This document shows positions 6,443 through 62,502 of a stretch of DNA of 64,000 nucleotides, piece after piece. This stretch comes from Bacteroidota bacterium (GTDB lineage Bacteria; Bacteroidota; Ignavibacteria; Ignavibacteriales; Ignavibacteriaceae). The stretch spans positions 1 to 64,000 of the forward strand of contig JADFLR010000005.1 in assembly GCA_022564295.1 (NCBI GenBank). The letters run 5' to 3'. The notes beneath the pieces were generated by a model. It did not search any database. It had not been told where the DNA came from and saw only the letters and a program-made list of their open reading frames with translations. Position 1 is the stretch's first letter. Each line of letters opens with the position of its first letter. Position numbers and translations under genes: made by a program.

Positions 6443-7924
6443 ATGGAAATGGATTTCAATATATTTAATTCGTTAGCAAAAGAATATAACCTAATTCCTG
6501 TTTATGAATTAATGACAGCTGATATGCTTACCCCCGTCATTGCATATTTGAAGATCAGGCAAAAAGGCAAGTATAATTTTCTTTTAGAATCTGTTGAGGG
6601 TTCGGAAAATCTTTCAAGGTATTCTTTTATTGGAAGAAATCCTGCTTATGTTTTCAGCAATAAGGGTGAATTAATTACAATTAGAAACCAAACAAAGGCA
6701 TCACAGATAAACAAAAGCATTTTTGATTTTATCAGGCAAGAGTTGAAAATTTACCGGCATCCAATTATAGATGATCTGCCCGATTTTACCGGAGGAGTTG
6801 TTGGTTATTTTGGTTATGAAAATTCTTCGCTGATTGAAAGTGTATTGAAAAAAGAGATGAAAAAAACCGATCAGCCGGATTCTATTTTTGGTTTTTACGA
6901 TACTATACTTGCATTCGATCATTTTAAACATCAAATAATACTTATAACAAATGTTAAGATTGAAAATGATACAAACCTCAAACAAGAATACGAAGCCGCA
7001 AAACAAAGACTATCCATTCTTAAAACTGAATTACAAAAGCCTTTTACTTATTCATCCGACTTTAAATTAACAAACAAACTGCAAGAAGATTTTGATCCGA
7101 CTGAGTTTTACAAGCAGGTTGAATCGGGTAAAGAACATATTTATGAGGGTGATATATTTCAGATTGTAATTTCAAAAAGATTTTCAGCAAGATTTTCAGG
7201 TGATCTTTTAAATGTTTACAGAGCTCTTAGAATTATTAATCCATCTCCCTATATGTACTTTCTCGAATTCGAAAATGATTTTTCTGTAATAGGAACTTCA
7301 CCTGAAGACCTGCTAAAAGTGAAGAATGGTGTTGCCCAGGTTCTACCGATTGCAGGAACAAGAAGACGGGGAAAAACAAATGAGGAGGATCTTGCATTAG
7401 AAAAAGATTTAATGAAAGATGAAAAAGAATTAGCCGAACACACGATGCTTGTTGACCTTGGAAGAAATGATCTTGGAAGAGTTTGTAAATACGGAACTGT
7501 GAAAGTTACTGAGAATATGAAAGTCCATCGTTACTCACACGTAATGCATATAGTATCGAAGGTTGAGGGCATTATATCTGATGATAAAGATTCAATTGAT
7601 GCACTTAAATCATGCTTCCCTGCCGGAACAGTAACCGGGGCACCGAAAATCCGTGCAATGCAACTCATAAGCAAGTATGAAAAGTCTGCCAGAAATGTTT
7701 ATGCTGGTGCGGTTGGTTATTTTGATTTCTCAGGCAATCTTGATATGTGCATCGCAATCAGAACATTGTTTGCAAAAGAAAATACAATTTATTGGCAGGC
7801 AGGTGCAGGTATAGTTGCAGACAGCAAACCAAACCTGGAAGCAAAGGAAATAAAAAATAAATCGGCAGCATTAGTTAAAGCGTTAAAATTTGCAGAGGTA
7901 TTGGATGAAAATTTTAGTAATTGA
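6443..7924 (+). CDS. trpE: Anthranilate synthase component I
   Basis: Converts chorismate, with ammonia from TrpG, to anthranilate. The LLES motif for tryptophan feedback binding is at residues 47-50, and the chorismate-binding core is present (GTSPEDLL, PIAGTRRRG, LVDLGRNDLGRV, CFPAGTVTGAPK). 493 aa is a normal length. The start at 6443 is followed by a second ATG two codons on, so 6449 is possible. First enzyme gene of the operon, placed right after the attenuator, and overlapping trpG by 20 nt. Confidence 0.97.
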   Translation: MEMDFNIFNSLAKEYNLIPVYELMTADMLTPVIAYLKIRQKGKYNFLLESVEGSENLSRYSFIGRNPAYVFSNKGELITIRNQTKASQINKSIFDFIRQELKIYRHPIIDDLPDFTGGVVGYFGYENSSLIESVLKKEMKKTDQPDSIFGFYDTILAFDHFKHQIILITNVKIENDTNLKQEYEAAKQRLSILKTELQKPFTYSSDFKLTNKLQEDFDPTEFYKQVESGKEHIYEGDIFQIVISKRFSARFSGDLLNVYRALRIINPSPYMYFLEFENDFSVIGTSPEDLLKVKNGVAQVLPIAGTRRRGKTNEEDLALEKDLMKDEKELAEHTMLVDLGRNDLGRVCKYGTVKVTENMKVHRYSHVMHIVSKVEGIISDDKDSIDALKSCFPAGTVTGAPKIRAMQLISKYEKSARNVYAGAVGYFDFSGNLDMCIAIRTLFAKENTIYWQAGAGIVADSKPNLEAKEIKNKSAALVKALKFAEVLDENFSN

Positions 7925-8471
7925 TAACTACGATTCCTTTACGTACAATCTTGTTCAGTTGTTGGGTAAAGAAGTAAGTTCGATCATCGTTAAGCGAAAT
8001 GATAAGATTACAGTTAAGGAAATCGCAAAATTAAATCCGGATAAAATACTTATTTCACCGGGACCCGGTAAACCGGAAGATTCAAATGTATCCCTGGCTT
8101 GCATAAAAGAGTTTGGAAGTAAGCTTCCTATTCTTGGAGTATGTTTAGGTCATCAGGCAATAGGAATAGCTTTTGGCGGAAAGGTAATTAAAGCGCCAAA
8201 ATTAATGCATGGTAAAACATCGCTAATGAATCATGATAAAAAAACGATATTCAAGAATATCCCGCAAAAATTTAATGCTACACGATACCACTCATTGATA
8301 ATTGATCATGATTCTTTGCCTAGTGAACTAGAAATTAGTGCTCGTACGGATGATAATGTGATAATGGGAATTAGACATAAGACATTTCCAATCGAAGGAA
8401 TTCAATTTCATCCGGAATCGATTTTAACAGATGAAGGTAAAAATATTATTAGCAACTGGGTTCAATTATGA
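7905..8471 (+). CDS. trpG: Anthranilate synthase glutamine amidotransferase component II
   Basis: Class I glutamine amidotransferase that supplies ammonia to TrpE. I start it at ATG 7905 (MKILVIDNYDSFTYN), the usual N-terminus, not at the track start 7890. The nucleophile C80 lies in GVCLGHQ, and the oxyanion region in SPGPGKPEDS; the catalytic His/Glu are in FHPESI. 188 aa, as expected for a free-standing TrpG. Its 5' end overlaps trpE by 20 nt and its stop overlaps trpD (ATGA), which points to translational coupling. Confidence 0.96.
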   Translation: MKILVIDNYDSFTYNLVQLLGKEVSSIIVKRNDKITVKEIAKLNPDKILISPGPGKPEDSNVSLACIKEFGSKLPILGVCLGHQAIGIAFGGKVIKAPKLMHGKTSLMNHDKKTIFKNIPQKFNATRYHSLIIDHDSLPSELEISARTDDNVIMGIRHKTFPIEGIQFHPESILTDEGKNIISNWVQL

Positions 8472-9487
8472 TAAAGAAAATGCTGCTAAAATTAATAGAT
8501 GGTAAAAATTTAAGTCTAGAAGAATCTACAAATGTGATGAATGAAATAATGACCGGGAAAGTGAACCCTTCTTTGCTGTCGGGAATATTAGTTGCATTAA
8601 AATCGAAAGGAGAAATAGCAGAAGAAATTGCCGGTTTTGCTTTAGCCATGAGGGAGAACAGCATCAAACTTAATAATACAGATGATAATGTAATAGATGT
8701 TTGCGGAACAGGTGGTGATAGTTCCGGAACTTTTAATATCTCAACTGCTGCAGCGTTTGTGGTTGCAGGTGCAGGAGTAAAAGTAGCAAAGCATGGCAAC
8801 AGATCGATTTCAAGTAATTGTGGAAGTGCGGATGTTTTAACCGAGCTTGGTGTGAATATTAATCTGCCTGTAGAACAATCTGCAAAAGCACTTGAAGAAA
8901 TTGGAATAACATTTTTATTTGCTCCTAAATTTCACCCGGCAATGAAACATGCAGCACATGTTAGAAGAGAATTAGGGATGAAAACCATTTTTAATTTACT
9001 TGGTCCGTTAACAAATCCTGCAGGAGTTAAAAAACAGATCATCGGAGCATACAGTGATAATACGGTGAAATTACTTTCACAGGCAGCACACTATCTTGAG
9101 TTTGATAAAGTATGTTTTTTATGTGCGGGGAATAAGTATGATGAAATTATTCTCGATCAAAAAACAAAAATGATAGAATACAACAATGATGGTTTAACCG
9201 AAACAGAAATAAGTGCTGCAACTTTCGGTTATCCGGAAGTTAGTGTAAGTGAGATTCAAGGTGGAGATGTTAAAGACAATGCTCAAATAATTTTAGAAAT
9301 ATTTAAGAACAAAAATCGCAATGGTGCATTTCACACAGTCTGTGCAAATGCTGCGGTTGCACTTTATTCAGCAGGTGTTTCCGATGACCTGAAGAAGTGC
9401 AAAAATGCTGCTGAAGAATCAATATTAACAGGTGCGGCGTACAATAAATTGAAAAGTTTGATTGAGATTGGAAATGCTGCAGAGTAA
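8468..9487 (+). CDS. trpD: Anthranilate phosphoribosyltransferase
   Basis: Transfers phosphoribose from PRPP to anthranilate. The PRPP-binding signature CGTGGDSSGTFNISTAAA and the following KHGNRSISSNCGSADVL are clear, as is HPAMKHAAHVRRELG. 339 aa, free-standing (not fused to TrpG). The start ATG overlaps the trpG stop (ATGA). Confidence 0.97.
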   Translation: MIKKMLLKLIDGKNLSLEESTNVMNEIMTGKVNPSLLSGILVALKSKGEIAEEIAGFALAMRENSIKLNNTDDNVIDVCGTGGDSSGTFNISTAAAFVVAGAGVKVAKHGNRSISSNCGSADVLTELGVNINLPVEQSAKALEEIGITFLFAPKFHPAMKHAAHVRRELGMKTIFNLLGPLTNPAGVKKQIIGAYSDNTVKLLSQAAHYLEFDKVCFLCAGNKYDEIILDQKTKMIEYNNDGLTETEISAATFGYPEVSVSEIQGGDVKDNAQIILEIFKNKNRNGAFHTVCANAAVALYSAGVSDDLKKCKNAAEESILTGAAYNKLKSLIEIGNAAE

Positions 9488-9502
9488 AATTAGAAACGCG
9501 GA

Positions 9503-10297
9503 ATGAACATTTTAAATGAAATATTAGAAGTGAAGAAAAAAGAGGTCTCCGATTTGCGAAGAAAATATTCATTATCATCTTTTACTGAAACCGAGTTTTT
9601 TGAAAAAGAGACTTTAAGCTTTTATAATTCACTTAAAGATAAATCTGAAATGTCTGTAATTGCCGAAATAAAAAAAGCAAGTCCGTCTAAGGGAACAATA
9701 AAAGAAGATTTTGATCACATAGCAATTGCTAAAACATATTTTCATAATGGTGCAAATGCTGTTTCTGTGCTTACCGATGAAAATTTTTTTAAAGGTAAGC
9801 TTGATTATTTAAAAGACATTGCAAGTTTTAAAAGTCTTCCGCTATTAAGAAAAGATTTTATAATTGATGATTATCAAATTTTTCAATCAAAAGCATTTGG
9901 TGCAGATTTTATTTTACTGATAAGTGAAATTCTTTCAAAAAATCAGATAGCCGAATTAACTCATGCCGCCTATGAAATTGGATTGGAAGTTTTGCTGGAA
10001 CTACATTCGGAAGGACAGTTGAATAAAATTGATTTTAATCTTAACAAACTGGTTGGTATTAATAACAGAAACTTAAACGATTTTTCTGTTGACTTAAATA
10101 CCTGTATCAATATTTCTCACTATCTGCCTGAAGGTGTAATGGTTGTTGCAGAATCCGGTATAAACAAAAAATCAGATGTTCAATTACTTAATAAAAGTAA
10201 CATCGATGCAATTCTTGTCGGAGAATATTTAATGCGCAGTGAAAATATTGATGCTGCCTTAGTGCAATTAAAAAAGTGGTGCCGAAATGAAAATTAA
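9503..10297 (+). CDS. trpC: Indole-3-glycerol phosphate synthase
   Basis: Ring closure of CdRP to indole-3-glycerol phosphate by a (beta/alpha)8 barrel. Motifs seen: IAEIKKASPSKG (residues 53-64), LRKDFIIDDYQI, LLELHSE, GINNRNL and VVAESGI, with the catalytic Lys and Glu residues in place. 264 aa is typical. 15 nt downstream of trpD; its end overlaps trpF by 11 nt. Confidence 0.96.
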   Translation: MNILNEILEVKKKEVSDLRRKYSLSSFTETEFFEKETLSFYNSLKDKSEMSVIAEIKKASPSKGTIKEDFDHIAIAKTYFHNGANAVSVLTDENFFKGKLDYLKDIASFKSLPLLRKDFIIDDYQIFQSKAFGADFILLISEILSKNQIAELTHAAYEIGLEVLLELHSEGQLNKIDFNLNKLVGINNRNLNDFSVDLNTCINISHYLPEGVMVVAESGINKKSDVQLLNKSNIDAILVGEYLMRSENIDAALVQLKKWCRNEN

Positions 10298-10901
10298 GAT
10301 TTGCGGTATTACGAATATAGAAGACGCTTTGGCTGCTGAATCCTTTGGAGCCGATGCTGTGGGTTTCATCTTTTATAAAAAAAGTAATAGATATGTTTCA
10401 CCAGAGCAAGTAGAGCATATTATAAAAACTTTATCGCCTTTTACAACAAAGGTTGGTGTTTTTGTTAACGAAACTTTTGAGATAATTAATAAAATATCCA
10501 AACAAACAGGGATTAATGTTGTGCAGCTTCACGGAGATGAAAATTTGCATATTATGAAAAGTATTTTGCTACCTGTCATAAAAACTTTTCGGGTTGATGA
10601 TAACTTTGATTACAATAAGTTAAATCAATATCAGGAATATTCAATATTGCTCGATGCTTATTCCGAAAAAAATTACGGTGGAACCGGTAATAAATTAAAC
10701 TGGGAGAAAATCCCTTTTAAAATAAAAAATAAAATTATTCTTGCGGGTGGAATTTCATCAGATAATATTGAAATCATTTATAAAAATATAAATCCGGCAG
10801 CAGTCGATCTTTCTTCTTCCCTGGAAAAAACGCCTGGCAAGAAAGATAAAAAGAAGATGGAAAAGTTTTTTAACAAAGTAAACTTAATAAGGAGACAGTA
10901 A
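10287..10901 (+). CDS. trpF: Phosphoribosylanthranilate isomerase
   Basis: Amadori rearrangement of PRA to CdRP. The N-terminal KICGITN holds the conserved catalytic Cys (C6), DAVGFIFYKKSNRYV and VQLHGDE follow, and LLDAYS carries the catalytic Asp. 204 aa, separate from TrpC as in most non-enteric bacteria. Overlaps both neighbours (11 nt with trpC; TAATG with the DAHP synthase gene). Confidence 0.96.
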   Translation: MKIKICGITNIEDALAAESFGADAVGFIFYKKSNRYVSPEQVEHIIKTLSPFTTKVGVFVNETFEIINKISKQTGINVVQLHGDENLHIMKSILLPVIKTFRVDDNFDYNKLNQYQEYSILLDAYSEKNYGGTGNKLNWEKIPFKIKNKIILAGGISSDNIEIIYKNINPAAVDLSSSLEKTPGKKDKKKMEKFFNKVNLIRRQ

Positions 10902-11941
10902 TGCTGATATTAATGGATCTTAATGCTCCAAGAGAACACATTGAGAAAGTAAAAAAGAAAATCGTTGCTAAGGAATGCACACCGCACGAAATTCCCGGCT
11001 CACGTAAGCTTGCGATCGGTATAACAGGACCTTCGGGTAATCTTTCCATTGAAGATTTTTTAGGAATGGATTCTGTTGATGAAGTACTTCGTGTATCAAA
11101 ACCGTACAAACTGGTTGGCAGAGAAATGAAACCTGATGATACGGTAATTGATTTTGAGAATGCTTCAATCGGTGGAGAGAAACTTACAATTATTGCCGGA
11201 CCATGTTCTGTTGAAAGCAAGGATCAGATATTTGAAGTTGCCGGCTCACTTAAAGAACTGGGAATAAAATTTTTACGTGCCGGAGCATATAAACCTCGTT
11301 CAAGTCCGTACTCTTTTCAGGGATTGAAGGAAAAAGGCATCGAATATCTTGCAGATGTTAAGAGGGAACTTGGAATGAAAATCGTTACTGAAGCAAAAGA
11401 CACACACACATTACCTTTGATAGCTGAAGTTGCTGATATAGTGCAGATTGGTGCGAGAAACATGCAAAATTTTTCACTCCTTGAAGAAGCGGGAAAGATC
11501 AAAAATCCCATCCTTTTAAAAAGAGGTTTGGCTGCAAAGATGGAAGATTTATTAATGAGCGCCGAATATATTCTATCTCAAGGAAACTACAATGTTATTC
11601 TTTGTGAAAGAGGAATACGAACCTTTGAAACCCATACACGAAACACACTTGATTTAAATATTGTTCCTGTAATAAAAAAACATTCTCATCTTCCAATTAT
11701 AGTTGATCCTTCACACGGTGTTGGCATCTGGGATAAAGTAACTCCGATGGCAATGGCTGCCGTGGCTTGCGGTGCCGATGGTTTAATGATTGAAGTACAC
11801 TCGCATCCTGAGGAAGCTCTTTCTGATGGGTTTCAATCTTTAACGATCAAGAATTTTAAGAATCTCTTAGAGAAAATCGAAAAGATTGCTTCGGTAGTAG
11901 ATAAAAGGATAGACAATGAAGAAATCCAGATCAGCAATTGA
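10901..11941 (+). CDS. aroF: 3-deoxy-7-phosphoheptulonate synthase (type I-beta, N-terminal ferredoxin-like domain)
   Basis: First step of the shikimate pathway, PEP plus erythrose-4-phosphate to DAHP. Residues 1-~75 are a regulatory ferredoxin-like domain as in Thermotoga AroF; the barrel follows with [41 protein letters not shown] and VDPSHGVG. 346 aa. In Thermotoga the FL domain mediates inhibition by Tyr/Phe. Here the gene sits inside the trp operon, so its expression should follow Trp attenuation. The TAATG junction with trpF and the 26-nt overlap with trpB argue for coupled translation. Confidence 0.94.
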
Positions 11942-13124
11942 AATGCCTGATAGCAGAGGAAAGTTCGGAAAGTATGGTGGAAAATTTGTTCCTGAAACTT
12001 TAATCGCTCCGTTAAAGGAACTTGAATCAACTTACTTATTGATGAAGAAGGATAAACAGTTCAAGAAAGAGTTGATGCAGCTTCATAAAGAATATTCGGG
12101 AAGACCGACTCCACTTACTTTTGCAGATAAATTAACTTCATATTACGGCAAAGGAAAAATTTATCTTAAACGTGAAGATCTTTGTCATACGGGCGCGCAC
12201 AAAATCAACAATACTCTCGGTCAAATTCTGCTCGCAAAAAAATTGGGTAAAACAAGAATAATAGCTGAAACAGGTGCAGGACAGCATGGTGTGGCGACTG
12301 CTACGGTGTGCGCTAAATTTGATTTGGATTGTGTTATTTACATGGGCGAAATTGATATGAAAAGGCAGGAACCAAACGTCTTCCGAATGAAGCTTTTGGG
12401 AGCTGAAGTTGTTAGTGTGAAATCCGGCAGTCAAACATTAAAAGATGCTACAAATGAAGCAATAAGAGATTGGGTAACAAACGTAACAGATACACATTAC
12501 ATAATCGGTTCTGTTGTCGGTCCTCATCCTTATCCAATGATGGTAAGAGATTTTCAGTCTATAATTGGATTGGAAACCAAAAAACAAATTATTGAAAAAG
12601 AAAATAAAGAACCTGATTACATTATTGCCTGCGTTGGCGGCGGAAGTAATGCAATAGGAATTTTTTATCCTTTCATTAATGGTAAGGTTAAACTAATTGG
12701 TGTGGAAGCTGCTGGTTACGGTTTGGATTCAAACAAACATTGCGCGACTTTAACTCTTGGCAGAGTAGGAATTTTTCATGGGATGAAAACATGTCTTCTT
12801 CAAACAGATGATGGGCAGATTTCCGAAGTTCATTCAATTTCCGCAGGACTCGATTACCCTGGCGTTGGACCTGAACATAGTTACTTAAAAGATAATTTTT
12901 TAGTTGAATACGATTCCATAACAGATGACGAAGCATTAAGTGCGGTAAAACTTCTTGCACAAACTGAAGGAATAATTCCAGCATTAGAAACCGCTCATGC
13001 TATAGCATACCTCGAAAAACTTTTACCTAAAACTAGTAAAGATGAAATTATTGTTTTAAATGTAAGCGGAAGGGGTGATAAAGATCTTTCAATTATAATG
13101 GATTCATACGGGGATAAAATTTGA
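11916..13124 (+). CDS. trpB: Tryptophan synthase beta chain
   Basis: PLP enzyme joining indole and serine to tryptophan. PLP Lys96 is in [15 protein letters not shown], the phosphate loop in [10 protein letters not shown], and [12 protein letters not shown] and [13 protein letters not shown] are conserved. 402 aa, TrpB1 type. The start at 11916 has AAAGGATAG upstream; the next ATG (11943) has no such site. The 5' end overlaps the DAHP synthase gene by 26 nt and the stop overlaps trpA. Confidence 0.97.
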
Positions 13125-13912
13125 AATCAAAAATTTCGAAATATATTGAGGATAAAAATACGAAGGGAGAAAAAATCCTTTCGGTTTTTTTAACTTCCGG
13201 TTTCCCCGAAAAGGATCATTTTGTTGAACTTGCACTAAATGTTTTAGCTGCCGGTGCGGATATGCTTGAGATCGGTTTTCCATTTAGCGATCCCATAGCA
13301 GACGGACCAATTATTCAACAGTCATCACAAACAGCTTTGAGCAATGGAATTGATCTCCTTAAAACATTGAAGTACGTTAAAGAGATTAACGAGCATACTG
13401 ATAAACCAATTATTCTTATGGGATATGCTAATCCTTTATTGAGTTACGGCTTAGAAAAGTTCGCAGATGATTCGAAGAGAATTGGAGTTGATGGATTGAT
13501 TGTTCCCGATATTCCGCTGGATGAATATGATAACTTTTTCACATCCAAATTTGATGGGACAGATATAATTCTTTTAATCACTCCTACCACACCAATCGGA
13601 AGAATAAAAATGATCGATGATAAAAGCTCGGGATTTGTTTATTGTGTAAGTGTTATTGGCATTACAGGCGCCCTAAAAACAACAGATACAGATAATCTTC
13701 AATTTATAAAAAATGCTTATGAACAATGCACAAACAACAGAGTTCTTGTTGGTTTTGGAATTTCATCCGTTGAAGATGTAAAATATTATAAGCCGCATTG
13801 TGACGGTGTAATTGTAGGCAGCGCTGTTATTAAATCACTAATGAATGATAATAGCAAATATCAGAAAACATTAGAGTTGGTTCGTAATTTGAAAAGTGGT
13901 TTGATAAATTAG
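13121..13912 (+). CDS. trpA: Tryptophan synthase alpha chain
   Basis: Cleaves indole-3-glycerol phosphate to indole and G3P; partner of TrpB. Catalytic Glu50 and Asp61 lie in [22 protein letters not shown] is the phosphate-binding loop. 263 aa. The start codon is TTG, embedded in the trpB stop (TTGA); no ATG or GTG would keep the N-terminus, so the TTG is probably real and depends on coupling. Last gene of the operon; no clear terminator follows. Confidence 0.96.
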
Positions 13913-14020
13913 TTCTATATTTTTAGTAATGAAAAAGATATTGTCATTCAGCAGGAATCTTCTTATTTAACTTGAATAACCAAATAATTTAGTAACTCAT
14001 ACTACGTCAAAGTTGTTTTT

Positions 14021-14149
14021 GAATTGCCATGCCCTTTAGGGCGTGGATTAAAAATACCTTAAATTTCTGGTCTTTAGTCTAAAACAGTGTGGGCTAAAGC
14101 CCAGAGTTAGTAGTTTCTCCAGCCACGACTTAAAAGTCGTGGCAATTCA
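14021..14149. repeat. 129-bp element with terminal inverted repeats
   Basis: GAATTGCCATG at the left and CGTGGCAATTC at the right are inverted copies (one mismatch). Inside are three more palindromes: CATGCCC/GGGCGTG, GGGCTAAAGCCC and CCACGACTT/AAGTCGTGG. It looks like a MITE- or REP-like unit. Its right end supplies the stop codon of the RidA-like gene. Confidence 0.65.
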
Positions 14150-14602
14150 CTTCACCTTAACGATTATCTCAACTTCTACAGCAGAATCAGCAGGCAATTC
14201 ATTCACACCAACAGCACTGCGAACATGCTTACCTGATTCTCCAAATATTTTCCCCAAAAACTCTGATGCACCGTTCGCAACTTTGGGTTGATCTGTGAAC
14301 CCATCGGCGCTGTTCACAAAAACTGTTACTTTCACAATTTGCTCTATCTTGTTCAAATCACCTATTTCACTTTTTATGGAACTTAATCCATTCAGTGCAC
14401 ATAATTCTGCAGCCTTTTGCCCTTCTTCAATTGTAAGGTCAAATCCTATCTTTCCGCTGTACATTAACTCTCCGTCTGCAAACGGAACCTGACCAGAGGT
14501 ATAAACATAATCACCTGTTCGGATTGCAGGAATGTATGCTGCAAGAGGTTTCGGAGTTTCCGGAAGTGTAAAGCCAAATTCTTTCATTTTTTCTTCTACC
14601 AT
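14147..14602 (-). CDS. RidA/YjgF/YER057c family protein
   Basis: 151 aa of the longer YjgF subgroup (PKPLAAYIPAIRTGDYVYTSGQVPF at the start). The conserved Arg for substrate carboxylate is present in KHVRSAVGVNELP, and the C-terminus ends VEVEIIVKVK. RidA proteins hydrolyse reactive enamine/imine intermediates from PLP enzymes; this subgroup is less well defined, so the activity is only likely. The stop codon lies inside the end of the 129-bp inverted-repeat element, suggesting that element insertion fixed the present C-terminus. Convergent with trpA. Confidence 0.85.
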   Translation of the reverse strand: MVEEKMKEFGFTLPETPKPLAAYIPAIRTGDYVYTSGQVPFADGELMYSGKIGFDLTIEEGQKAAELCALNGLSSIKSEIGDLNKIEQIVKVTVFVNSADGFTDQPKVANGASEFLGKIFGESGKHVRSAVGVNELPADSAVEVEIIVKVK

Positions 14603-14691
14603 TTTGTTACCTAAAAAATTAATATTAAACTGTTTTTATATAAATTTGCACACAATTTAAAATAATTATGTACCGTAAAGGAAATTGATAA

Positions 14692-15456
14692 ATGACTGAA
14701 TCTAAATTTAATGAATTCGTTCAGATAGTAAAAAGACTTAGAAAAGAATGTCCATGGGATAAAGAACAAACAAATGATTCAATTAAGGCAGCAACAATAG
14801 AGGAAGCGTATGAAGTTGTTGATGCCATTGATAATAAAGATTACGATGAATTAAGAAAAGAACTCGGCGATCTTTTACTGCACGTAGTTTTTCATACGGT
14901 AATTGCAGAAGAATCAAATCATTTTAAGATTGATGATGTAATAGACTCTATTCAAGAAAAACTTATACGGCGCCATCCTCATGTTTTTGGAGATACAAAG
15001 GTTTCAGGTTCGAGTGAAATATTAAAAAACTGGGAGGAGATAAAACTAAGCGAAGGAAGAGCGAATCTTCTGGATGGTATGCCTCCCTTACTTCCTGCAT
15101 TGCAGCGGGCACATCGCATACAGGAAAAGGTTTCTAAAGTTGGTTTCGATTGGGAAAAGAAAGAAGATGTTTGGAAAAAAGTGATTGAAGAAATTGAAGA
15201 GATGCATCAATCGGAAAAAGATGGTACTCATGATGAACTTGAGAGTGAAATTGGTGATGTGTTTTTTGCTCTTGTAAACTATGCGAGATTTTTAGGAGTA
15301 AATCCTGAAAACGCTTTAAGGAAAACAAATAAAAAGTTTATAAAAAGGTTTGGCTATGTTGAAAAGAAGATAACGGAATCGGGAAGAAAATTATCTGAAT
15401 CTACACTTGAGGAAATGGATAAATATTGGGAAGAAAGTAAAAATATTGTTGATTGA
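14692..15456 (+). CDS. mazG: Nucleoside triphosphate pyrophosphohydrolase MazG
   Basis: Hydrolyses NTPs and damaged dNTPs to NMP plus PPi. Two tandem MazG domains: RLRKECPWDKEQTNDS and EEAYEVVDAI...ELGDLLLHVVFH in the first, EIEEMHQ...ELESEIGDVFFALVN in the second, with the EExxE/ExxD metal residues of both. 254 aa is normal. Start preceded by GGAAA. Its TGA is immediately followed by the phoH stop on the other strand (zero-gap convergence). Confidence 0.95.
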   Translation: MTESKFNEFVQIVKRLRKECPWDKEQTNDSIKAATIEEAYEVVDAIDNKDYDELRKELGDLLLHVVFHTVIAEESNHFKIDDVIDSIQEKLIRRHPHVFGDTKVSGSSEILKNWEEIKLSEGRANLLDGMPPLLPALQRAHRIQEKVSKVGFDWEKKEDVWKKVIEEIEEMHQSEKDGTHDELESEIGDVFFALVNYARFLGVNPENALRKTNKKFIKRFGYVEKKITESGRKLSESTLEEMDKYWEESKNIVD

Positions 15457-16416
15457 TTATTTATTATTTCCGTTGAATTTATCATAAGCATCAATTATAT
15501 CTTTAACTAACCTGTGCCGCACTACATCAGAACGATCGAAATAAACAAAGGAGACACCTTTTATATTCGATAAAATATCGCGTGCCTGTACCAGCCCGCT
15601 TACCTGCTTTGGCGGAAGGTCTATCTGCGTAATATCGCCGGTTACAATCGCTCTTGAATTAGCTCCCAATCTTGTGAGAAACATCTTCATTTGCATAGCC
15701 GTTGCATTCTGAGCTTCATCAAGAATAACAAAAGCATTGTTCAATGTTCTTCCTCTCATATATGCAAGCGGAACAATTTCTATAATCCCTTTTTCAAGGT
15801 AAGAACGTAGTTTTTCGGAGGGAAGCATATCGTCCAGTGCATCGTAAAGAGGTTTAAGGTAAGGATCGATTTTTTCTCTGAAATCGCCGGGAAGAAAACC
15901 AAGACTCTCTCCTGCTTCCACAGCAGGGCGTGCCAGAATGATCCTTTTTACTAATCCTTTTTTTAACGAGGATATTGCGAGAGCAACTGCCAGGTATGTT
16001 TTGCCGGTTCCTGCAGGACCTATTGCAAAACAGATATCGTTTTTGGTTGCTGCCTCAACATATTTTCTTTGTCCGGAAGTTCTTGCTTTAATTACATCGT
16101 GCTTGGTGTATAACACAATTGAATCATATTCCTGCTCATCAATTATTACCTTCCCCTCAATAGTTAAATTCAAGATGGTTACGACATCATCCCCTGTTAA
16201 CTTGCCGCTTGTGTTAAGCACGTAAGCCATTTCTTTAAAGATTTTCTCTATCCCTTCAACTTCTTCAATCACTCCCTTTATAAAAACATTTTCACCGCGA
16301 ACAGTTATCGAAGCGTTGAATCTATCCTCAACAATTTTGAGATTGGAATCATTCATTCCCAATAATGAGAGCATATCAACATTATCTAATACTATTTTTT
16401 TTTCTACTGCCGTCAT
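15457..16416 (-). CDS. phoH: PhoH-like P-loop ATPase
   Basis: 319 aa. An N-terminal KH-like segment (residues ~25-90) is followed by a P-loop NTPase with Walker A GPAGTGKT (133-140) and Walker B/DEAQ box (VILDEAQNAT), then LGANSRAIVTGDITQIDLP. PhoH proteins are RNA-linked ATPases, in many bacteria found next to ybeY; here ybeY is not adjacent. Gene symbol follows family use. Confidence 0.93.
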   Translation of the reverse strand: MTAVEKKIVLDNVDMLSLLGMNDSNLKIVEDRFNASITVRGENVFIKGVIEEVEGIEKIFKEMAYVLNTSGKLTGDDVVTILNLTIEGKVIIDEQEYDSIVLYTKHDVIKARTSGQRKYVEAATKNDICFAIGPAGTGKTYLAVALAISSLKKGLVKRIILARPAVEAGESLGFLPGDFREKIDPYLKPLYDALDDMLPSEKLRSYLEKGIIEIVPLAYMRGRTLNNAFVILDEAQNATAMQMKMFLTRLGANSRAIVTGDITQIDLPPKQVSGLVQARDILSNIKGVSFVYFDRSDVVRHRLVKDIIDAYDKFNGNNK

Positions 16417-52033: not shown

Positions 52034-52655
52034 TTTTACTCCAAGATATTACGAATACTTTAATTACTTAGTTGAAATAGCCTAAGTCGAGCATCCATCT
52101 TACCAAAGAGCGTTAACAGGAACTTATATTATTTATTCCTTTTCAGTTACTTTTACACAAGGACAATGCCATCATTAGTTAGTTGTAAAAATTTGATTTT
52201 TTGTATAAAATCAACGATTACCTCAAAATTAGAACTACATTAATTGTATCTAATTAATAATGTGTCCCAAAGAGAAACAATCAAACTGGTGTAATCAGTT
52301 GATATCCAACTCCGTTTATTGTAATGGAAATGTTAGCCACGAAAAGCAATATATCTTTAAGAAAACAAACAAAAGGATATAATTGCAGAACTAAATAATG
52401 ACAAAGGAAAATTGCAAAACCCGTGCCATATTCAAAACTATTGTGGTAAAATTTCAAGAATCAAAAATAAAACCATTATTTAGTTAAGTTTTAATACAAA
52501 AAAATGGCTTTTGAACAAATTTTTAGTATGAGACTTCTGAAAAATAACTTGGTGATAAACCTTTCATTTTAAGCCTGCCGTCGAAAAACTACAACCAGCA
52601 GGTAAGCTCAGCACCACTATTATGATTAAATATTTCACAAGTCTTCGTTTACCAA
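52034..52655. other. Intergenic region between pseudopilin operon and island
   Basis: About 620 bp, AT-rich, no convincing ORF. It should contain the promoter of the pseudopilin operon. AGCCTGCCG...CAGCAGG near 52570-52600 forms a weak palindrome of the interspersed type. The right end is the tmRNA-like attachment site. Confidence 0.5.
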
Positions 52656-52683
52656 GTGGAGGTGGCGGGAGTCGAACCCGCTC
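52656..52683 (-). other. Attachment site: tmRNA (ssrA) 3'-end fragment
   Basis: On the minus strand GAGCGGGTTCGACTCCCGC forms a T-arm, followed by the acceptor strand CACCTCCAC, the pattern of tmRNA 3' ends (e.g. Chlorobium GCGGGTTCAAGTCCCGCCAT...). The rest of a tmRNA would extend to higher coordinates but is replaced by the integrase region, so this is only the duplicated end of a target gene. A tRNA 3' end is a less likely alternative. Confidence 0.75.
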
Positions 52684-52772: not shown

Positions 52773-53786
52773 ATGTACTTATCAAAAAGAATAAACGGTT
52801 ATTATTATATCTATTATAAAGATAAGTATGGAAAACATCAAGGTATCTCTACAAAATCAAAACTTAAAAGTGATGCTCTCGAATTCCTTACTAACTTCAA
52901 ATCAGAACTAAAAAAGAAAGAGCATCAAAAAGTAATTCCAATACTCCTTGATGCTTTTAGGAAAGAGTTTCTAAAACATTCTGAAGCAATTCATTCTCCT
53001 AAAACAACTAAGACATTTATCACAACATTTAGATACCTTCAGGAGTTTCTGGGTAATATCTCTTTAGCGGAGATTAAAGAGAAAGACATCAAGGCTTATA
53101 TTGATAACCGTATAACCTCTGCCTCAGTTTATCAGGCAAGAAAGGATTTAATCAACTTAAGCAGTTGTTTCAATTGGTCAATATCAGAAGGATATATTTT
53201 AACTAATCCTTGTAAAAATGTTCCGAAGGTTAAGGTACCTCAAAAGATGCCTGTATTCTTTAGCAGAAAAGAATTTAACAAGCTTCTGGAAGTAATAGAC
53301 AATCAAGACTTAAAAGACCTTATCACCTTTGCTGTTAATACTGGCTGCAGACAAATGGAATTACTTACAGCTGAATGGAATCAAGTTAATTTTGAGCAAA
53401 GTTTGCTTATACTTGATAACCATAATCATGTTACTAAAAGCAAAAAAATCAGGTCAATCCCTTTGAACAAAACTGCAGTTGAAGTTTTATTGAGACGTAA
53501 GGAACTCAACTCATACAATCAAAACATATTTATTCACAAAGGAAGGGCACTCATACCTAAACGTGTTCAAAATAATTTTAGAATATATATTAAAGTTGCA
53601 GGTCTTAATCCTAAATTAAATTTTCATTCGCTTCGTCATACCTTTGCAAGCTGGTTAGTTCAAATGGGAGTTTCAATTTATGAGGTTAGTAAATTATTAG
53701 GGCATTCAAATATAAAAACAACTGAAATTTATTCTCATTTAAGAACTGAGGATTTAATGAAATCAGTTAACCTATTAAATAACTAA
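52773..53786 (+). CDS. Tyrosine recombinase / integrase of the island
   Basis: 337 aa. An Arm/core-binding N-terminal half (SAM-like, FITTFRYLQEFLGNISLAEI) and a catalytic domain with the Arg in NTGCRQMELLTAEW, HSLRHTFASWLV (HxxR), LGHSNIKTTEIYSH (His and nucleophile Tyr). All active-site residues are present. It starts 90 nt from the tmRNA-like att site and points into the island, the usual arrangement for integrative elements using ssrA or tRNA ends. Confidence 0.94.
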   Translation: MYLSKRINGYYYIYYKDKYGKHQGISTKSKLKSDALEFLTNFKSELKKKEHQKVIPILLDAFRKEFLKHSEAIHSPKTTKTFITTFRYLQEFLGNISLAEIKEKDIKAYIDNRITSASVYQARKDLINLSSCFNWSISEGYILTNPCKNVPKVKVPQKMPVFFSRKEFNKLLEVIDNQDLKDLITFAVNTGCRQMELLTAEWNQVNFEQSLLILDNHNHVTKSKKIRSIPLNKTAVEVLLRRKELNSYNQNIFIHKGRALIPKRVQNNFRIYIKVAGLNPKLNFHSLRHTFASWLVQMGVSIYEVSKLLGHSNIKTTEIYSHLRTEDLMKSVNLLNN

Positions 53787-55830: not shown

Positions 55831-55971
55831 TTCTTGGTATTAAAGTAATATTGAGAAGAAAGGAGTTTTAGAATGCACTCAAGATGCCCCCCATAGAGTT
55901 ATATCTATAATAAATTCAACTAATTTCAATCAACATTTATTCTTGGTATTATTTAATATCGAGAGAAGGAG
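55831..55971 (+). repeat. Duplicated leader segment before the GHKL ATPase gene
   Basis: TTCTTGGTATTAAAGTAATA...AAGGAG (55831-55865) and TTCTTGGTATTATTTAATAT...AAGGAG (55940-55971) are near copies 109 bp apart, each ending in a strong ribosome site. The first is followed by an 8-codon ORF ATG...TAG (55873-55896, MHSRCPP), the second by the ATPase start. The remainder of 55582-55830 is AT-rich and has no gene. Confidence 0.75.
55873..55896 (+). CDS. Putative 7-residue leader peptide
   Basis: ATG at 55873 with AAGGAG 7 nt upstream reads MHSRCPP and stops at TAG. The Pro-Pro-stop end and the copied leader make regulation by ribosome stalling possible (EF-P dependent), but the peptide may simply be a by-product of the duplication. 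Confidence 0.35.
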   Translation: MHSRCPP

Positions 55972-55978
55972 TATAAAA

Positions 55979-57493
55979 ATGTTTACATATAAAGCAAATT
56001 CAATAAACCTACCTAATCCTGCCAAACTATTAGATTCATTAAGGTCAACTGGATATGATAATTACAATGCTCTAGCAGATATCATTGATAATTCCCTTGA
56101 TGCCGATGCTAACAAAGTCATCATTGATATCTATCAAGAAAAAGGTGATTTTAAAATAATTATTGCTGATGATGGTAAAGGAATGGATTTACATGTTCTC
56201 GATGAAGCATTGAAACTGGGCTCAGAAACTGATAAAGATTATCAGTCGGATTTAGGAAGATTTGGTATGGGTTTATCAACAGCAAGTCTTTCTATGTGCA
56301 GAAGAACTGAAATTATCACGAAGGATAAATCAGGTAAATTGTTAAAGTCTGTTACAGATTTAGATTGGGTTAAAGAGTCAAATGAGTTCAAGAAATATCT
56401 TGGCGAAGTTGATAATGATGATATTGATTTATTTAACAGTTATCTAAAAAATTCTGAAAGCGGAACAATAGTAATTTTCTCTAAATCAGATAGAATACAA
56501 AACACAAATACAACCGTATTCACAAATACGCTAAAGAAACACGTTGCACGAATATTTCGAAGGTTTTTAGAAGCGGGAAAAGTAATAATTATTAATAAAG
56601 AGAAAGTTCAACCATTTGACCCATTAATATTAAATGATAGTAATACCCGAGTTTATAGTGATGAAGAGTATGAGATAAAAATACAAAAGGGTGATAAATA
56701 TTATGAGGATACAATTAGAATTAAATTTGTAATCGTTCCCAACTATGGTTATTCAGGAAACAGAGATAAAGGGATAAATTATCAAAATCAGGGTTTCTAT
56801 GTAATGCGAAATCAAAGAGAATTATTTGCAGGTAGTAATCTTGACGGGATTTATACGAAGGATGCTCATCTCAACAGATTTAGAGCTGAAATATATTTTT
56901 CAGGTTCGTTGGACGATTTAATGGGTGTACATTTTACAAAGAGAAGCATCAGTATCGACCAAGCATTACATGATAAGATTAAAGAGTATTCTAGAGGACA
57001 AATAACAGAAATACAAAAAATTGCTGATAGTGAGAGACCAAAAAGTGAAAAAGTAGTTTCACATAGTAATTCTGAGAAACTAATTTCTAAAAAATCAAAA
57101 CTATTAGTTAAACCTCCTGCAGAAGAAGAACCTAAGAGAGAAACGGATGGTAAAAAAAATAAAAAAGAACCTGATTCTAAAGATAGAAAAAGAGACTTTG
57201 TTGAAAGGCTTAGACTAATCTGCAAATTTGAAGAACGTTCAATGGAAAAAGTTGGCCCTTTATATGCTCCATCAATGGAAGGAAAAAAAGTTATTATTAC
57301 CTGGAATAGTGACCATCCGTTTTACAAATTAATTGTTGAGAGGAAAGAAGATAAAACATTTGTGACAGCATTGGATTTCTTGATATTTTCATTTGCAAGC
57401 GCAGAACTTAAATCTGTAAATGATGAGAATGTATCTTTGCTTGAAGGTATTAGGCAGTATATGTCTCAAAATCTTCGAGTATTAGTAGATTAA
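55979..57493 (+). CDS. GHKL (Hsp90/MORC-like) ATPase, candidate defence protein
   Basis: I start at ATG 55979 (AGAAGGAG 7 nt before), not at 55943. 504 aa: Bergerat ATP-binding fold with N-box LADIIDNSLDA (32-42), G1 DDGKGM (64-69), G2 LGRFGMGLSTAS (~92-103). The catalytic base position, normally Glu (ExxxN), is Asp34. A second domain follows, then a Lys/Glu-rich linker (~370-410) and a C-terminal dimer-like region with ITWNSDHPFYK. MORC-like ATPases occur in bacterial defence and mobile islands; the specific role here is inference. Followed by two unrecognised genes. Confidence 0.85.
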   Translation: MFTYKANSINLPNPAKLLDSLRSTGYDNYNALADIIDNSLDADANKVIIDIYQEKGDFKIIIADDGKGMDLHVLDEALKLGSETDKDYQSDLGRFGMGLSTASLSMCRRTEIITKDKSGKLLKSVTDLDWVKESNEFKKYLGEVDNDDIDLFNSYLKNSESGTIVIFSKSDRIQNTNTTVFTNTLKKHVARIFRRFLEAGKVIIINKEKVQPFDPLILNDSNTRVYSDEEYEIKIQKGDKYYEDTIRIKFVIVPNYGYSGNRDKGINYQNQGFYVMRNQRELFAGSNLDGIYTKDAHLNRFRAEIYFSGSLDDLMGVHFTKRSISIDQALHDKIKEYSRGQITEIQKIADSERPKSEKVVSHSNSEKLISKKSKLLVKPPAEEEPKRETDGKKNKKEPDSKDRKRDFVERLRLICKFEERSMEKVGPLYAPSMEGKKVIITWNSDHPFYKLIVERKEDKTFVTALDFLIFSFASAELKSVNDENVSLLEGIRQYMSQNLRVLVD

Positions 57494-59496: not shown

Positions 59497-59643
59497 ATGG
59501 ATAAAAGAACAAAATTTTTAATAATCCGATTACGCTCTCAAGAGAAAAAAAAGCTTTTTGAGTATGCGAATTCTGTTGATACCAGCGTAAGCGTACTGAT
59601 TCGTAAACTAATAAGAGTAACAATTACAAAAAATAGCCGGTAA
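59497..59643 (+). CDS. Ribbon-helix-helix (CopG/Arc-type) DNA-binding protein, 48 aa
   Basis: Too short for the track. ATG 59497: MDKRTKFLIIRLRSQEKKKL, then FEYANSVDTSVSVLIRKLIR. This has the RHH layout: an N-terminal beta strand with alternating residues (KFLIIRL), helix A, a turn with DTSVS and helix B (VSVLIRKLI). Size equals CopG/Arc. The tandem 11-bp repeats upstream are plausible operators. In plasmids and integrative elements such proteins control copy number or mobilisation. Confidence 0.7.
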   Translation: MDKRTKFLIIRLRSQEKKKLFEYANSVDTSVSVLIRKLIRVTITKNSR

Positions 59644-59696
59644 GTGCGCTAATATATACCGGCTATAATCACATAACAATTTATGATACAAGTGTA

Positions 59697-60119
59697 ATGC
59701 GCAACAAAGATAATATAACACTTCGCTTAATACAACTACAGCCAAAGATTTATAAAGTTCGGCTTCAGCTTCCTACAGAAACACGTTTTATTGGTGCAAT
59801 TAACTTTACTGGTGATGGTGTATACTATAAAAAAATCAAACTCTCCATACACGAATTCCATAAGACTTCATCAGTTGGTTTTTGTTATGACCTGCTTAAC
59901 AATTACGAATTTAAATGGATTAAAGTCTTTACAGACAATAGAGTGCTGGAGACTTCCAGAAGATTTGTTCTTGAGCACGGTACAATTAAGCAGTTCTATA
60001 GCAAGAATTTAGAAAAACAGATTTTTTTAAAACTTAATCTGTTTGGTCGTGACCGAGCAGAACAATGGGAAAATAATAATGGTATCCAAACAAATTTATT
60101 TGAAGAGGTATTGATATGA
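59697..60119 (+). CDS. Island hypothetical protein, beta-rich
   Basis: 140 aa, no signal or membrane helix. Alternating strands in the first half (KIYKVRLQLPTETRFIGAIN, GDGVYYKKIKLSIHEF) and a helical C-terminal half. Family unknown. Overlaps the next gene by 4 nt (ATGA), so one operon; placed between an RHH gene and a replicative ATPase. Confidence 0.6.
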   Translation: MRNKDNITLRLIQLQPKIYKVRLQLPTETRFIGAINFTGDGVYYKKIKLSIHEFHKTSSVGFCYDLLNNYEFKWIKVFTDNRVLETSRRFVLEHGTIKQFYSKNLEKQIFLKLNLFGRDRAEQWENNNGIQTNLFEEVLI

Positions 60120-60358
60120 CTTGTATGTGGCAGGAAATTAAGGGAGAACCTTACTACCGCTTTCAAACAGATGAACCAAAAATTGCTGCTAAGCTTAAAC
60201 GAAGAAAACACTTTGAACAATGTAGCTGGGGTCTAAATTGTCCCCATTGGATTTTCGTTTCACGCTATACAAGACCGTCCAAGGCTCGAAAGGCTCTTGG
60301 GATACTTACGGGTCGTCCCCTTAAAAAAGATAGCGAGGAAGACGTTTATTTCTCTTAA
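60116..60358 (+). CDS. Small basic hypothetical protein
   Basis: 80 aa, Lys/Arg-rich, with CMWQEIKGEPYYRFQTDEPK and HFEQCSWGLNCPHWIFVSRY; a Cys/His/Trp cluster could bind metal. Coupled by 4-nt overlap to the 140-aa gene. Unknown role; likely cytosolic. Confidence 0.6.
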   Translation: MTCMWQEIKGEPYYRFQTDEPKIAAKLKRRKHFEQCSWGLNCPHWIFVSRYTRPSKARKALGILTGRPLKKDSEEDVYFS

Positions 60359-60413
60359 AACGTTCCCTATTTGTAGTTAAAAATCAATCCTCAACAAAAA
60401 TTTATGTATACAT

Positions 60414-62015
60414 ATGGAAAATAATTTACCTATCGAATCGCTTCCCCGGGACGCCCGTGATTTCTTTGAGGAGCGTGCGGCAATATTTGAGTTTGATGCT
60501 GGCTTAGATAAGCTGACTGCTGAAAAGTACGCTCTTGCTGAAACAGCGAAAATATTCAGCTTACAACAACTTCAGTTAATTAATAATGGTAAAAACGATA
60601 TGTCCGAAACAAACAATAATCTGAACCCCGTAGAAATTTCCCCATATGCACGAAAAGCCTTAGAAGAGACTGTAACTTTAAGAAAACTAAATATCGCACA
60701 AGATTTTATAGATGGTATTTTGTATTATGGCATTAAGCTGAATGAAAAATCATTATTAATTTCATCTAAGCGAGAATTCTTTTCAGTTGAGGAAGCTATG
60801 GAGAAGCGCTTTAAACTTATAGATATTGAGGTTGAGAAGAGCAGATTTTCAGTTAGTGGCATTAAATCTTTCTTGAGTGGAGATGAGGTCAATCTTTATA
60901 AATTGTTCAATGGCATTAGAAGCTACATTAAGAGTTATATTATTCTTCCATCTGACTCACTTTATGATTTACTCGCTCTGTGGGTGATGGGAACATATGT
61001 ATTCAGGATTTTCCGGTATTTTCCATATATACATCTATTAGCTGAAAAAGGTTCAGGAAAAACTTTACTAATGGAGATTCTGTCCCCTGTTTGCTTTAAT
61101 GGGGAAATTTCTGTTAGTAATACTACAGCAGTAATCTTTCGTGAAGTTCAAGCACTTTCACCTACATTATTTATTGATGAGGCTGAAAAATTGTATAGGC
61201 GTTCATCAGAAGCAAATACTGCTATGTTGGAAATTTTACGAGGTGGTTATAATATCAGTGGAACAGTTAAGAGATGTGATAAAGAAAGCCATAAGGTAAA
61301 AAGTTATAGTTGTTACAGCCCAAAGATGTTTGCAAGTATTTCTGATATAGAAGATGTTCTCGGTGATAGAGCTATTAAAATTAGAATACTAAGAAAGACT
61401 GAATCGGAGAGCGTTGACAATTATATGGAAACTCAATCAGTTCTTCAAACACATGAGAAAATCCGAACTTCTCTTTACAATTTTGGACTCAATTTTGCAC
61501 CTACAATCTTTGAGAGATTTTCTCAATTCAATCTGGAAGATGAGAATTATAGGCATTTAAGGAACAGAGAAATGAATTTATGGTGTCCTTTATTAATTTT
61601 ATCATCTATGGTAGATGACTATTCTGAAAATTCTTCTGATAATATTACAAGCAATAATTTAATTCAGCTTTCAAAAGCAGTTGTTGCTGAAAAACAGTAC
61701 GAGGATTTTACAGAAAATCAAACTGTAGTCGTTTCAAAAACAATTTTAATTATGCTTAATGATATCCAGCCAACAAAGACTGAGGACTCATCATTTTTAT
61801 ATGATACCGATGCTACGTATTCTTATTTTATTGAGCAGGAAGGCTTTGATTATTTAACATCAAAAACACACTTCTCAAGAATATTAAATAAGACCTGCAA
61901 AATAAAAACAAAGCCATACGATGGGAATAAAAAATCTAAAAGAGCATATGTTATTAATAAAGAAGAAATAGAAGATGTGCTTAGCCGTTATTCGAAAAGA
62001 GATTTAGAAGAATAA
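60414..62015 (+). CDS. AAA+ ATPase, replicative helicase/primase-like (DUF3631/P4-alpha-type)
   Basis: 533 aa. An N-terminal ~180 residues without obvious catalytic motif, then an ATPase with Walker A AEKGSGKTLLMEIL (~214), Walker B LFIDEAEKL, a GGYNISGTV loop and MFASISDIEDVLGDRAIKIRIL (sensor/Arg-finger region), then a wHTH-like C-terminus. The pattern fits phage/plasmid-type helicase or DUF3631 proteins. Situated between tandem repeats (59.4 kb) and AAGTGTAA boxes (62.0-62.25 kb), so I take it as the island's replication or maintenance protein. Confidence 0.75.
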   Translation: MENNLPIESLPRDARDFFEERAAIFEFDAGLDKLTAEKYALAETAKIFSLQQLQLINNGKNDMSETNNNLNPVEISPYARKALEETVTLRKLNIAQDFIDGILYYGIKLNEKSLLISSKREFFSVEEAMEKRFKLIDIEVEKSRFSVSGIKSFLSGDEVNLYKLFNGIRSYIKSYIILPSDSLYDLLALWVMGTYVFRIFRYFPYIHLLAEKGSGKTLLMEILSPVCFNGEISVSNTTAVIFREVQALSPTLFIDEAEKLYRRSSEANTAMLEILRGGYNISGTVKRCDKESHKVKSYSCYSPKMFASISDIEDVLGDRAIKIRILRKTESESVDNYMETQSVLQTHEKIRTSLYNFGLNFAPTIFERFSQFNLEDENYRHLRNREMNLWCPLLILSSMVDDYSENSSDNITSNNLIQLSKAVVAEKQYEDFTENQTVVVSKTILIMLNDIQPTKTEDSSFLYDTDATYSYFIEQEGFDYLTSKTHFSRILNKTCKIKTKPYDGNKKSKRAYVINKEEIEDVLSRYSKRDLEE

Positions 62016-62018
62016 TAA

Positions 62019-62249
62019 AAGTGTAATTAAAACCTTTATTTTAAGAAAATTATGATAACTATTACACTTACATTTTGATATTGATAACGGAGTCAAGTTC
62101 TCTTTAATCTACCTAAATTGAACAACGCATATAAAATTATACTCTGTTACCTTTATACTACTTATAAAGTGTAAGTGTAATTTTGTATAAAAATTGTTTG
62201 AATATAATTTATAATCCGAATAATTGTTATTACACTTCTGGTTACACTT
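62019..62249. repeat. Six AAGTGTAA boxes downstream of the ATPase gene
   Basis: AAGTGTAA occurs at 62019, 62167 and 62173 on the plus strand and TTACACTT at 62062, 62230 and 62242 on the minus strand, six exact 8-mers in 231 bp, two of them overlapping. The surrounding sequence is AT-rich. They could be initiator boxes of an origin, or operators. The gap 62250-62502 shows nothing else. Confidence 0.7.
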
Positions 62250-62502
62250 TATTCAACTCCTCCTTTATCAAGTCCCAATTATTTCCATATATCAATACAG
62301 GAGATAATTGCTAATAACATTAAATTATAATAAGTTGTATATCAGGAGATGTTATCCCCTGCCACTTTACTTCTTTACCGGCAGGGGGGAATGTTAAGAG
62401 TTGGCAAGCAGGCATTAAAGGAAATTTATTTCAGTCCAGGTAACATTCATTGATATAATACTGATATGCTGCAAAATTTTTTAACGTTTGAGGAGGAATG
62501 AT

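Follow-up and report, generated by a model that had tools for sequence, protein, structure and literature searches.

Origins of PICIs follow directly on the 3′ side of the initiation gene, with one set of iterons on either side of AT-rich DNA (PMC6092414). The SaPI Rep protein uses its C-terminal domain to recognise iterons located downstream, and Cch2 of SCCmec binds direct repeats downstream of its own gene (PMC7581432). Replication of pRN1 needs 166 bp downstream of rep, within which only a stem-loop of ~100 nt has been shown to be required (PMC4234260), and TrfA of RK2 binds the clamp (PMC4980987). A 2018 report held the placement of the origin 3′ of rep to be common to no known bacterial replicon besides PICIs.

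A related arrangement occurs in the stretch of DNA analysed here, the first 64,000 nucleotides of contig JADFLR010000005.1 from a Bacteroidota bacterium of the Ignavibacteriaceae, referred to here as the window. Positions 59690–62249 very probably constitute the module by which an integrative element of 12.3 kb, inserted at the 3′ end of the tmRNA gene ssrA, is replicated; a 533-residue ATPase would serve as initiator helicase at boxes 3′ of its gene. The module is probably a replicon of the type that pairs an initiator helicase with a 3′ iteron origin. Its features, with those of the surrounding island, are as follows.

52655–52681, no strand assigned: attL, an exact 27-bp copy of the ssrA 3′ end, from repeat comparison
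52773–53786, plus strand: tyrosine integrase of 337 residues, beside the left repeat copy (Pfam Phage_integrase, 9.3e-32)
59497–59643, plus strand: ribbon-helix-helix-like protein of 48 residues, from weak NikA-like and RHH matches below the curated cut-off
59690–59697, plus strand: lone seventh copy of AAGTGTAA; it overlaps the start codon of the 140-residue gene, the first of the operon
59697–60119, plus strand: putative replication-module accessory of 140 residues with the C-terminal β-clamp-type motif IQTNLF, from family context and motif
60116–60358, plus strand: accessory of 80 residues with a compact α/β model (pLDDT 88), from family context
60414–62015, plus strand: Walker-type ATPase of 533 residues, the proposed initiator helicase, from conserved motifs, weak fold matches and homologs
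62019–62249, both orientations: six AAGTGTAA boxes, the proposed iterons and origin, from exact matches and cluster statistics
62182–62228, no strand assigned: 47-bp spacer, 85% AT, between inward-facing box pairs, from composition

The precedents of PICIs, SaPI Rep, SCCmec Cch2 and pRN1 lead us to propose that the ATPase binds the boxes, melts the DNA and loads. It would bind the AAGTGTAA boxes just behind its own gene, probably via its C-terminal domain, open AT-rich spacers between inverted boxes and then load as a ring-shaped helicase. The 140-residue protein may tether the host β clamp through its C-terminal QxxLF motif, the 80-residue protein would be an accessory of the module, and, because no primase domain is apparent in the module, the host primase would be used for priming. 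Supporting this reading are the gene content, the att repeats, the box cluster, recurring 3′ arrays, small-gene families that lie beside replication genes, and the motif; from these we infer that the ATPase binds the boxes, melts DNA and acts as a helicase, that the clamp is contacted, and that the island excises and replicates. The replication module proposed in an earlier note on this DNA gains independent support from the arrays of relatives, the small-gene families, the clamp-type motif and the ssrA att repeats; the ATPase may, as that note suggested, drive autonomous replication of the excised island.

At the origin, the likeness to PICIs and SaPIs is one of layout only, with short-repeat sets around AT-rich DNA right behind the initiator gene (PMC6092414, PMC7581432); an integrase, a specific att site and a similar island size (about 15 kb for PICIs, ~12.27 kb here) are also shared. 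Distinct from those islands are two small accessory genes, unnamed in Pfam and NCBIfam. In sequence the ATPase has no credible match to solved structures of this kind, and in fold it resembles PriRep1 only weakly (7pds, E 0.014). RepAM initiators of actinomycete integrative elements are of the DUF3631 type (PMC3218068); the window ATPase is homologous to DUF3631 proteins, and a Streptomyces plasmid likewise has an array 3′ of its DUF3631 gene, but the window protein lacks a DUF3631 match and no FtsK-type transfer gene was found among the island proteins examined. Among archaeal plasmids of the pRN1/pXZ1 type, a pXZ1 ORF contains a homologous helicase region, a small gene lies upstream of rep, and in pRN1 an essential region lies 3′ of rep (PMC4234260); in contrast to the primase-polymerase domain of pRN-type rep proteins, Pfam shows no primase family in the window ATPase, and pXZ1 has no short-box array. 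SCCmec Cch2 likewise combines an initiator-type helicase, downstream repeats and a small partner protein (PMC7581432), and the SCCmec iteron AAGTG is similar, perhaps coincidentally, to the five bases with which AAGTGTAA begins; the recombinase is of another type and the island has no CCPol. Iteron plasmids with a clamp-binding initiator, such as RK2 with TrfA, also have a clamp-type motif in a plasmid-like replication module (PMC4980987), whereas in the island it resides on a separate small protein rather than on the initiator.

The island spans ~12.27 kb and is defined by the exact 27-bp repeat and the integrase. Situated just beyond the window is the second repeat copy (contig positions 64921–64947), which coincides with the 3′ end of ssrA on the minus strand; the repeats that had been reported on both sides of the ATPase are these two copies. 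Conserved in four congeners are ssrA with the att core and its right-hand neighbour genes, but the pre-insertion site could not be reconstructed because the left flank is not conserved in these four genomes. Close relatives of the island integrase are also encoded at six loci holding the 140-residue family. PICIs are characterised by helper-phage induction, interference and packaging and by a lack of phage structural or lytic genes; a Pfam scan of part of the island ORFs found no phage structural family here. Elsewhere in the island, positions 55943–57493 encode a 516-residue GHKL-type ATPase that matches MzaB of PADLOC (1.3e-31), with no partner genes recognised among the neighbours scanned.

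The 533-residue ATPase contains a Walker A motif (EKGSGKT, residues 211–217), a Walker B motif (LFIDEAE, residues 252–258) and a downstream arginine (GDRAIKI, residues 317–323). It matches no family in Pfam or NCBIfam, DUF3631 and Pfam primase families included, and its sequence does not detectably place it in any named family of initiators. A profile search of solved structures returned a spurious ZNF622 match and weak noise, with nothing credible. The AlphaFold model is of mediocre confidence (pLDDT 69), and its weak fold matches include, besides the SaPI-type PriRep1, ORC/Cdc6 (E 0.0016), AsfvPrimPol, MCM, Rep40 and D5; none has an E value below 0.001, and the fold assignment therefore relies on motifs and homologous proteins.

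Of 195 other genomes sampled from related organisms, 8 encode a homolog of the ATPase; named relatives also came from a collection scan, which located them in Ignavibacteriota, Omnitrophota, Bacteroidetes, Armatimonadota, Planctomycetota and archaea. In the tree, the window ATPase groups with members from Ignavibacteria, Omnitrophota and Bacteroidetes (support 88/92), with very long branches. The ATPase is homologous to DUF3631 proteins, and one of five members of its clade matches DUF3631 itself (1.7e-7). More distant homologs are encoded on circular plasmids of Acinetobacter, Deinococcus, Streptomyces and Sulfolobus islandicus (pXZ1) and by two phages; viral contigs, searched with one sequence or with an alignment (A5), yielded no homolog.

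The six boxes, which the earlier note had placed within 231 bp directly after the ATPase gene, are exact matches at 62019(+), 62062(−), 62167(+), 62173(+), 62230(−) and 62242(−), three per strand, with the first lying 4 bp past the ATPase stop codon (62015). They form the largest 8-mer cluster in 100 kb of the contig (six copies versus three for the next independent clusters), and in 40 dinucleotide shuffles of the window no 8-mer cluster exceeded four. Across the 4.07-Mb genome the 9-mer AAGTGTAAT is found 86 times, about as often as base composition predicts; four copies fall within 219 bp here, whereas every other 1-kb stretch of the genome holds at most two, which excludes a box that is simply common in the background. 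The AT-rich spacer between the inward-facing pairs is a candidate melting site.

Boxes were also sought behind related ATPases, as had been suggested, and the same or a variant box was found at the loci of the closest relatives. In the first 350 bp beyond the 3′ end of the ATPase gene, and with at most one mismatch, AAGTGTAAT is found six times in the window (expected 0.15, from the rest of each locus), six times in the Melioribacteraceae locus L014 (two exact; expected 0.20), three times in L012 (two exact; expected 0.20) and three times in L073 (none exact; expected 0.05); L012 and L013 are the same locus in two genomes and were counted once. Locus L015 has five copies of a variant box, TCGTAA, 3′ of its ATPase gene. 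These closest relatives are only ~31–35% identical to the window protein, and the 3′ flanks of seven more distant ATPases each contain no more than one AAGTGTAAT-like match. The array test grew in steps (a cluster scan of many loci, inspection of flanks by eye, a shuffle test and a box count, in that order), and this comparison within the Ignavibacteria is therefore exploratory.

Arrays of other boxes occupy the same place further off. The shuffle p-values given here come from many small tests with a floor of 0.005, without multiple-testing correction, on loci that are not phylogenetically independent: CTTAAA ×7 in Omnitrophota L079 and L087 (p 0.005), another box in Omnitrophota L080 (p 0.02), TGCACA ×7 in Armatimonadota L088 (p 0.005), GTGAAC ×7 in two inverted groups ~100 bp apart in Hadesarchaea L089 (p 0.005) and a marginal array in L078 (p 0.03). 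A circular Streptomyces plasmid, which also encodes a PrimPol, an HTH protein and an integrase, has CCGCTAC ×10 3′ of its DUF3631 gene (p 0.005). The later loci (L078–L081, L085, L087–L089 and L091), fetched by protein similarity alone and analysed with the same k-mer lengths, come closest to an independent test. The shuffle test found no 3′ array at homologs L016–L018, L074–L076, L081, L085 and L091, on three Acinetobacter plasmids, pDrdII and pXZ1, or in two phages, and the 3′-array rule is therefore not universal. Among rep-type genes with both flanks tested, an array (p ≤ 0.02) lies 3′ in 16 of 34 and 5′ in 1 of 34, a tally that mixes ATPase, PrimPol and other rep-type genes, some of them included because the cluster scan had already shown an array. 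Taken together, the box appears to travel with the ATPase, the same or a variant box lying behind the closest relatives and others at the same place further off.

On inspection, ATTACAT-like repeats 3′ of the ~295-residue rep genes of L044, L045 and L048 resemble arrays; they were not significant in the shuffle test and were left out of the tally. In L012, AGGTAACA is repeated seven times (15607–15881) directly after a 719-residue ORF (13403–15562), possibly a further 3′ array beside a rep-like gene. The same locus (7601–12343) and L013 (8033–12064) contain an ORF of 1343–1580 residues in which radical-SAM and spore-photoproduct-lyase-like parts are joined to a DnaG_N-like and DUF3631-like helicase region.

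The boxes could instead be a partition site or operators of a DNA-binding regulator, either the 48-residue RHH-like protein or another, with the lone box as main operator. The RHH-like gene lies just upstream of the operon, its product being a possible repressor or excisionase, and the lone box covers the first start codon of the operon; speculatively, this box is an operator, or it may be there by chance. The same box, however, recurs 3′ of the ATPase at two loci, L012 and L014, in which a tblastn search gave no credible RHH relative (best E 0.83 over 11 residues), and different ATPases have different boxes in the same position, which makes this explanation unlikely. As a variant, a regulator that shares the boxes with the origin may act in autorepression.

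A second explanation is that the array is mainly a structured element (a stem-loop or cruciform origin, or an RNA structure) in which the inverted arms outweigh the sequence of the boxes. The RNA fold of 62010–62262 has a z-score of −5.25, five stretches from four arrays folded as DNA give stem-loops with z-scores of −3.0 to −4.0, and the ~100-bp stem-loop that follows rep in pRN1 has to stay intact (PMC4234260); a terminator scan found none inside the box array. Inverted boxes, however, necessarily give stem-loops to some degree, L014 has direct runs and unequal box numbers on the two strands, and the 9-mer is conserved although the ATPases themselves have diverged strongly. We consider this explanation quite improbable, and even then the array would remain an origin. 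That the island is a degenerate relic, which once had the module and now neither replicates nor excises, would fit the lack of a second copy of the ATPase and small genes in the 4.07-Mb genome, but the reading frames of the module are uninterrupted and the 27-bp att repeat contains no mismatch, leaving this reading very improbable.

Preceding the ATPase in the proposed replication module are the two small genes, described earlier as coupled and indeed joined by an ATGA overlap at 60116–60119. Neither family is named in Pfam (curated cut-off) or NCBIfam. Members of the 140-residue family lie directly 5′ of DnaB-type and putative initiator genes in L050, a prophage-like locus, and in L051, upstream of a RecA-type helicase with an intervening Cys-rich gene in L046, and also upstream of a ~295-residue rep-like protein related in sequence to part of a PrimPol protein; the family was not found in phage records. 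A β-clamp-type C terminus (QxxLF or QEDFF) is present in all nine aligned members. This is a short pattern, and a QxxLF-type C terminus occurs in 20 of 571 background ORFs, mostly of the 140-residue family or of the HTH family of PrimPol elements. By its QxxLF-type motif, the 140-residue protein is a putative β-clamp-binding accessory. In L049, an ORF at 422–844 resembles a second family copy beside the first (1295–1714), also with the C-terminal motif.

It is possible, and we put it forward tentatively, that Ignavibacteria, Omnitrophota, Armatimonadota and archaea harbour a largely undescribed group of replicons in which such ATPases work with origins of inverted iterons, always placed 3′ of the ATPase gene and with a box that differs between ATPase lineages, and that in the islands of Ignavibacteria the β clamp is brought to the origin by a separate family of small proteins. 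If so, a layout thought special to PICIs would be a recurring solution in unrelated lineages, archaea included, and two families of small genes that Pfam and NCBIfam do not name would acquire a replication role open to testing. Such a pairing of box with ATPase lineage would also allow the origins of many unannotated integrated elements to be located 3′ of the ATPase gene.

Most members of the 80-residue family are found close or adjacent to PrimPol genes within small elements that carry two integrases; the family also occurs near a rep-like ORF. A fold search with the 80-residue protein gave no significant match in PDB or viral libraries, and the family is absent from plasmid records; among viral contigs it occurs in one (L102), whose encoded proteins match L052. 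Nowhere else in the sampled loci do the 140- and 80-residue genes occur together with an ATPase of this type. Four small elements (L057, L059, L060 and L061) have two tyrosine integrases, a PrimPol gene and a relative of the 80-residue gene, together with an HTH gene with a QxxLF-type end and TGTCCAA arrays 3′ of the PrimPol gene.
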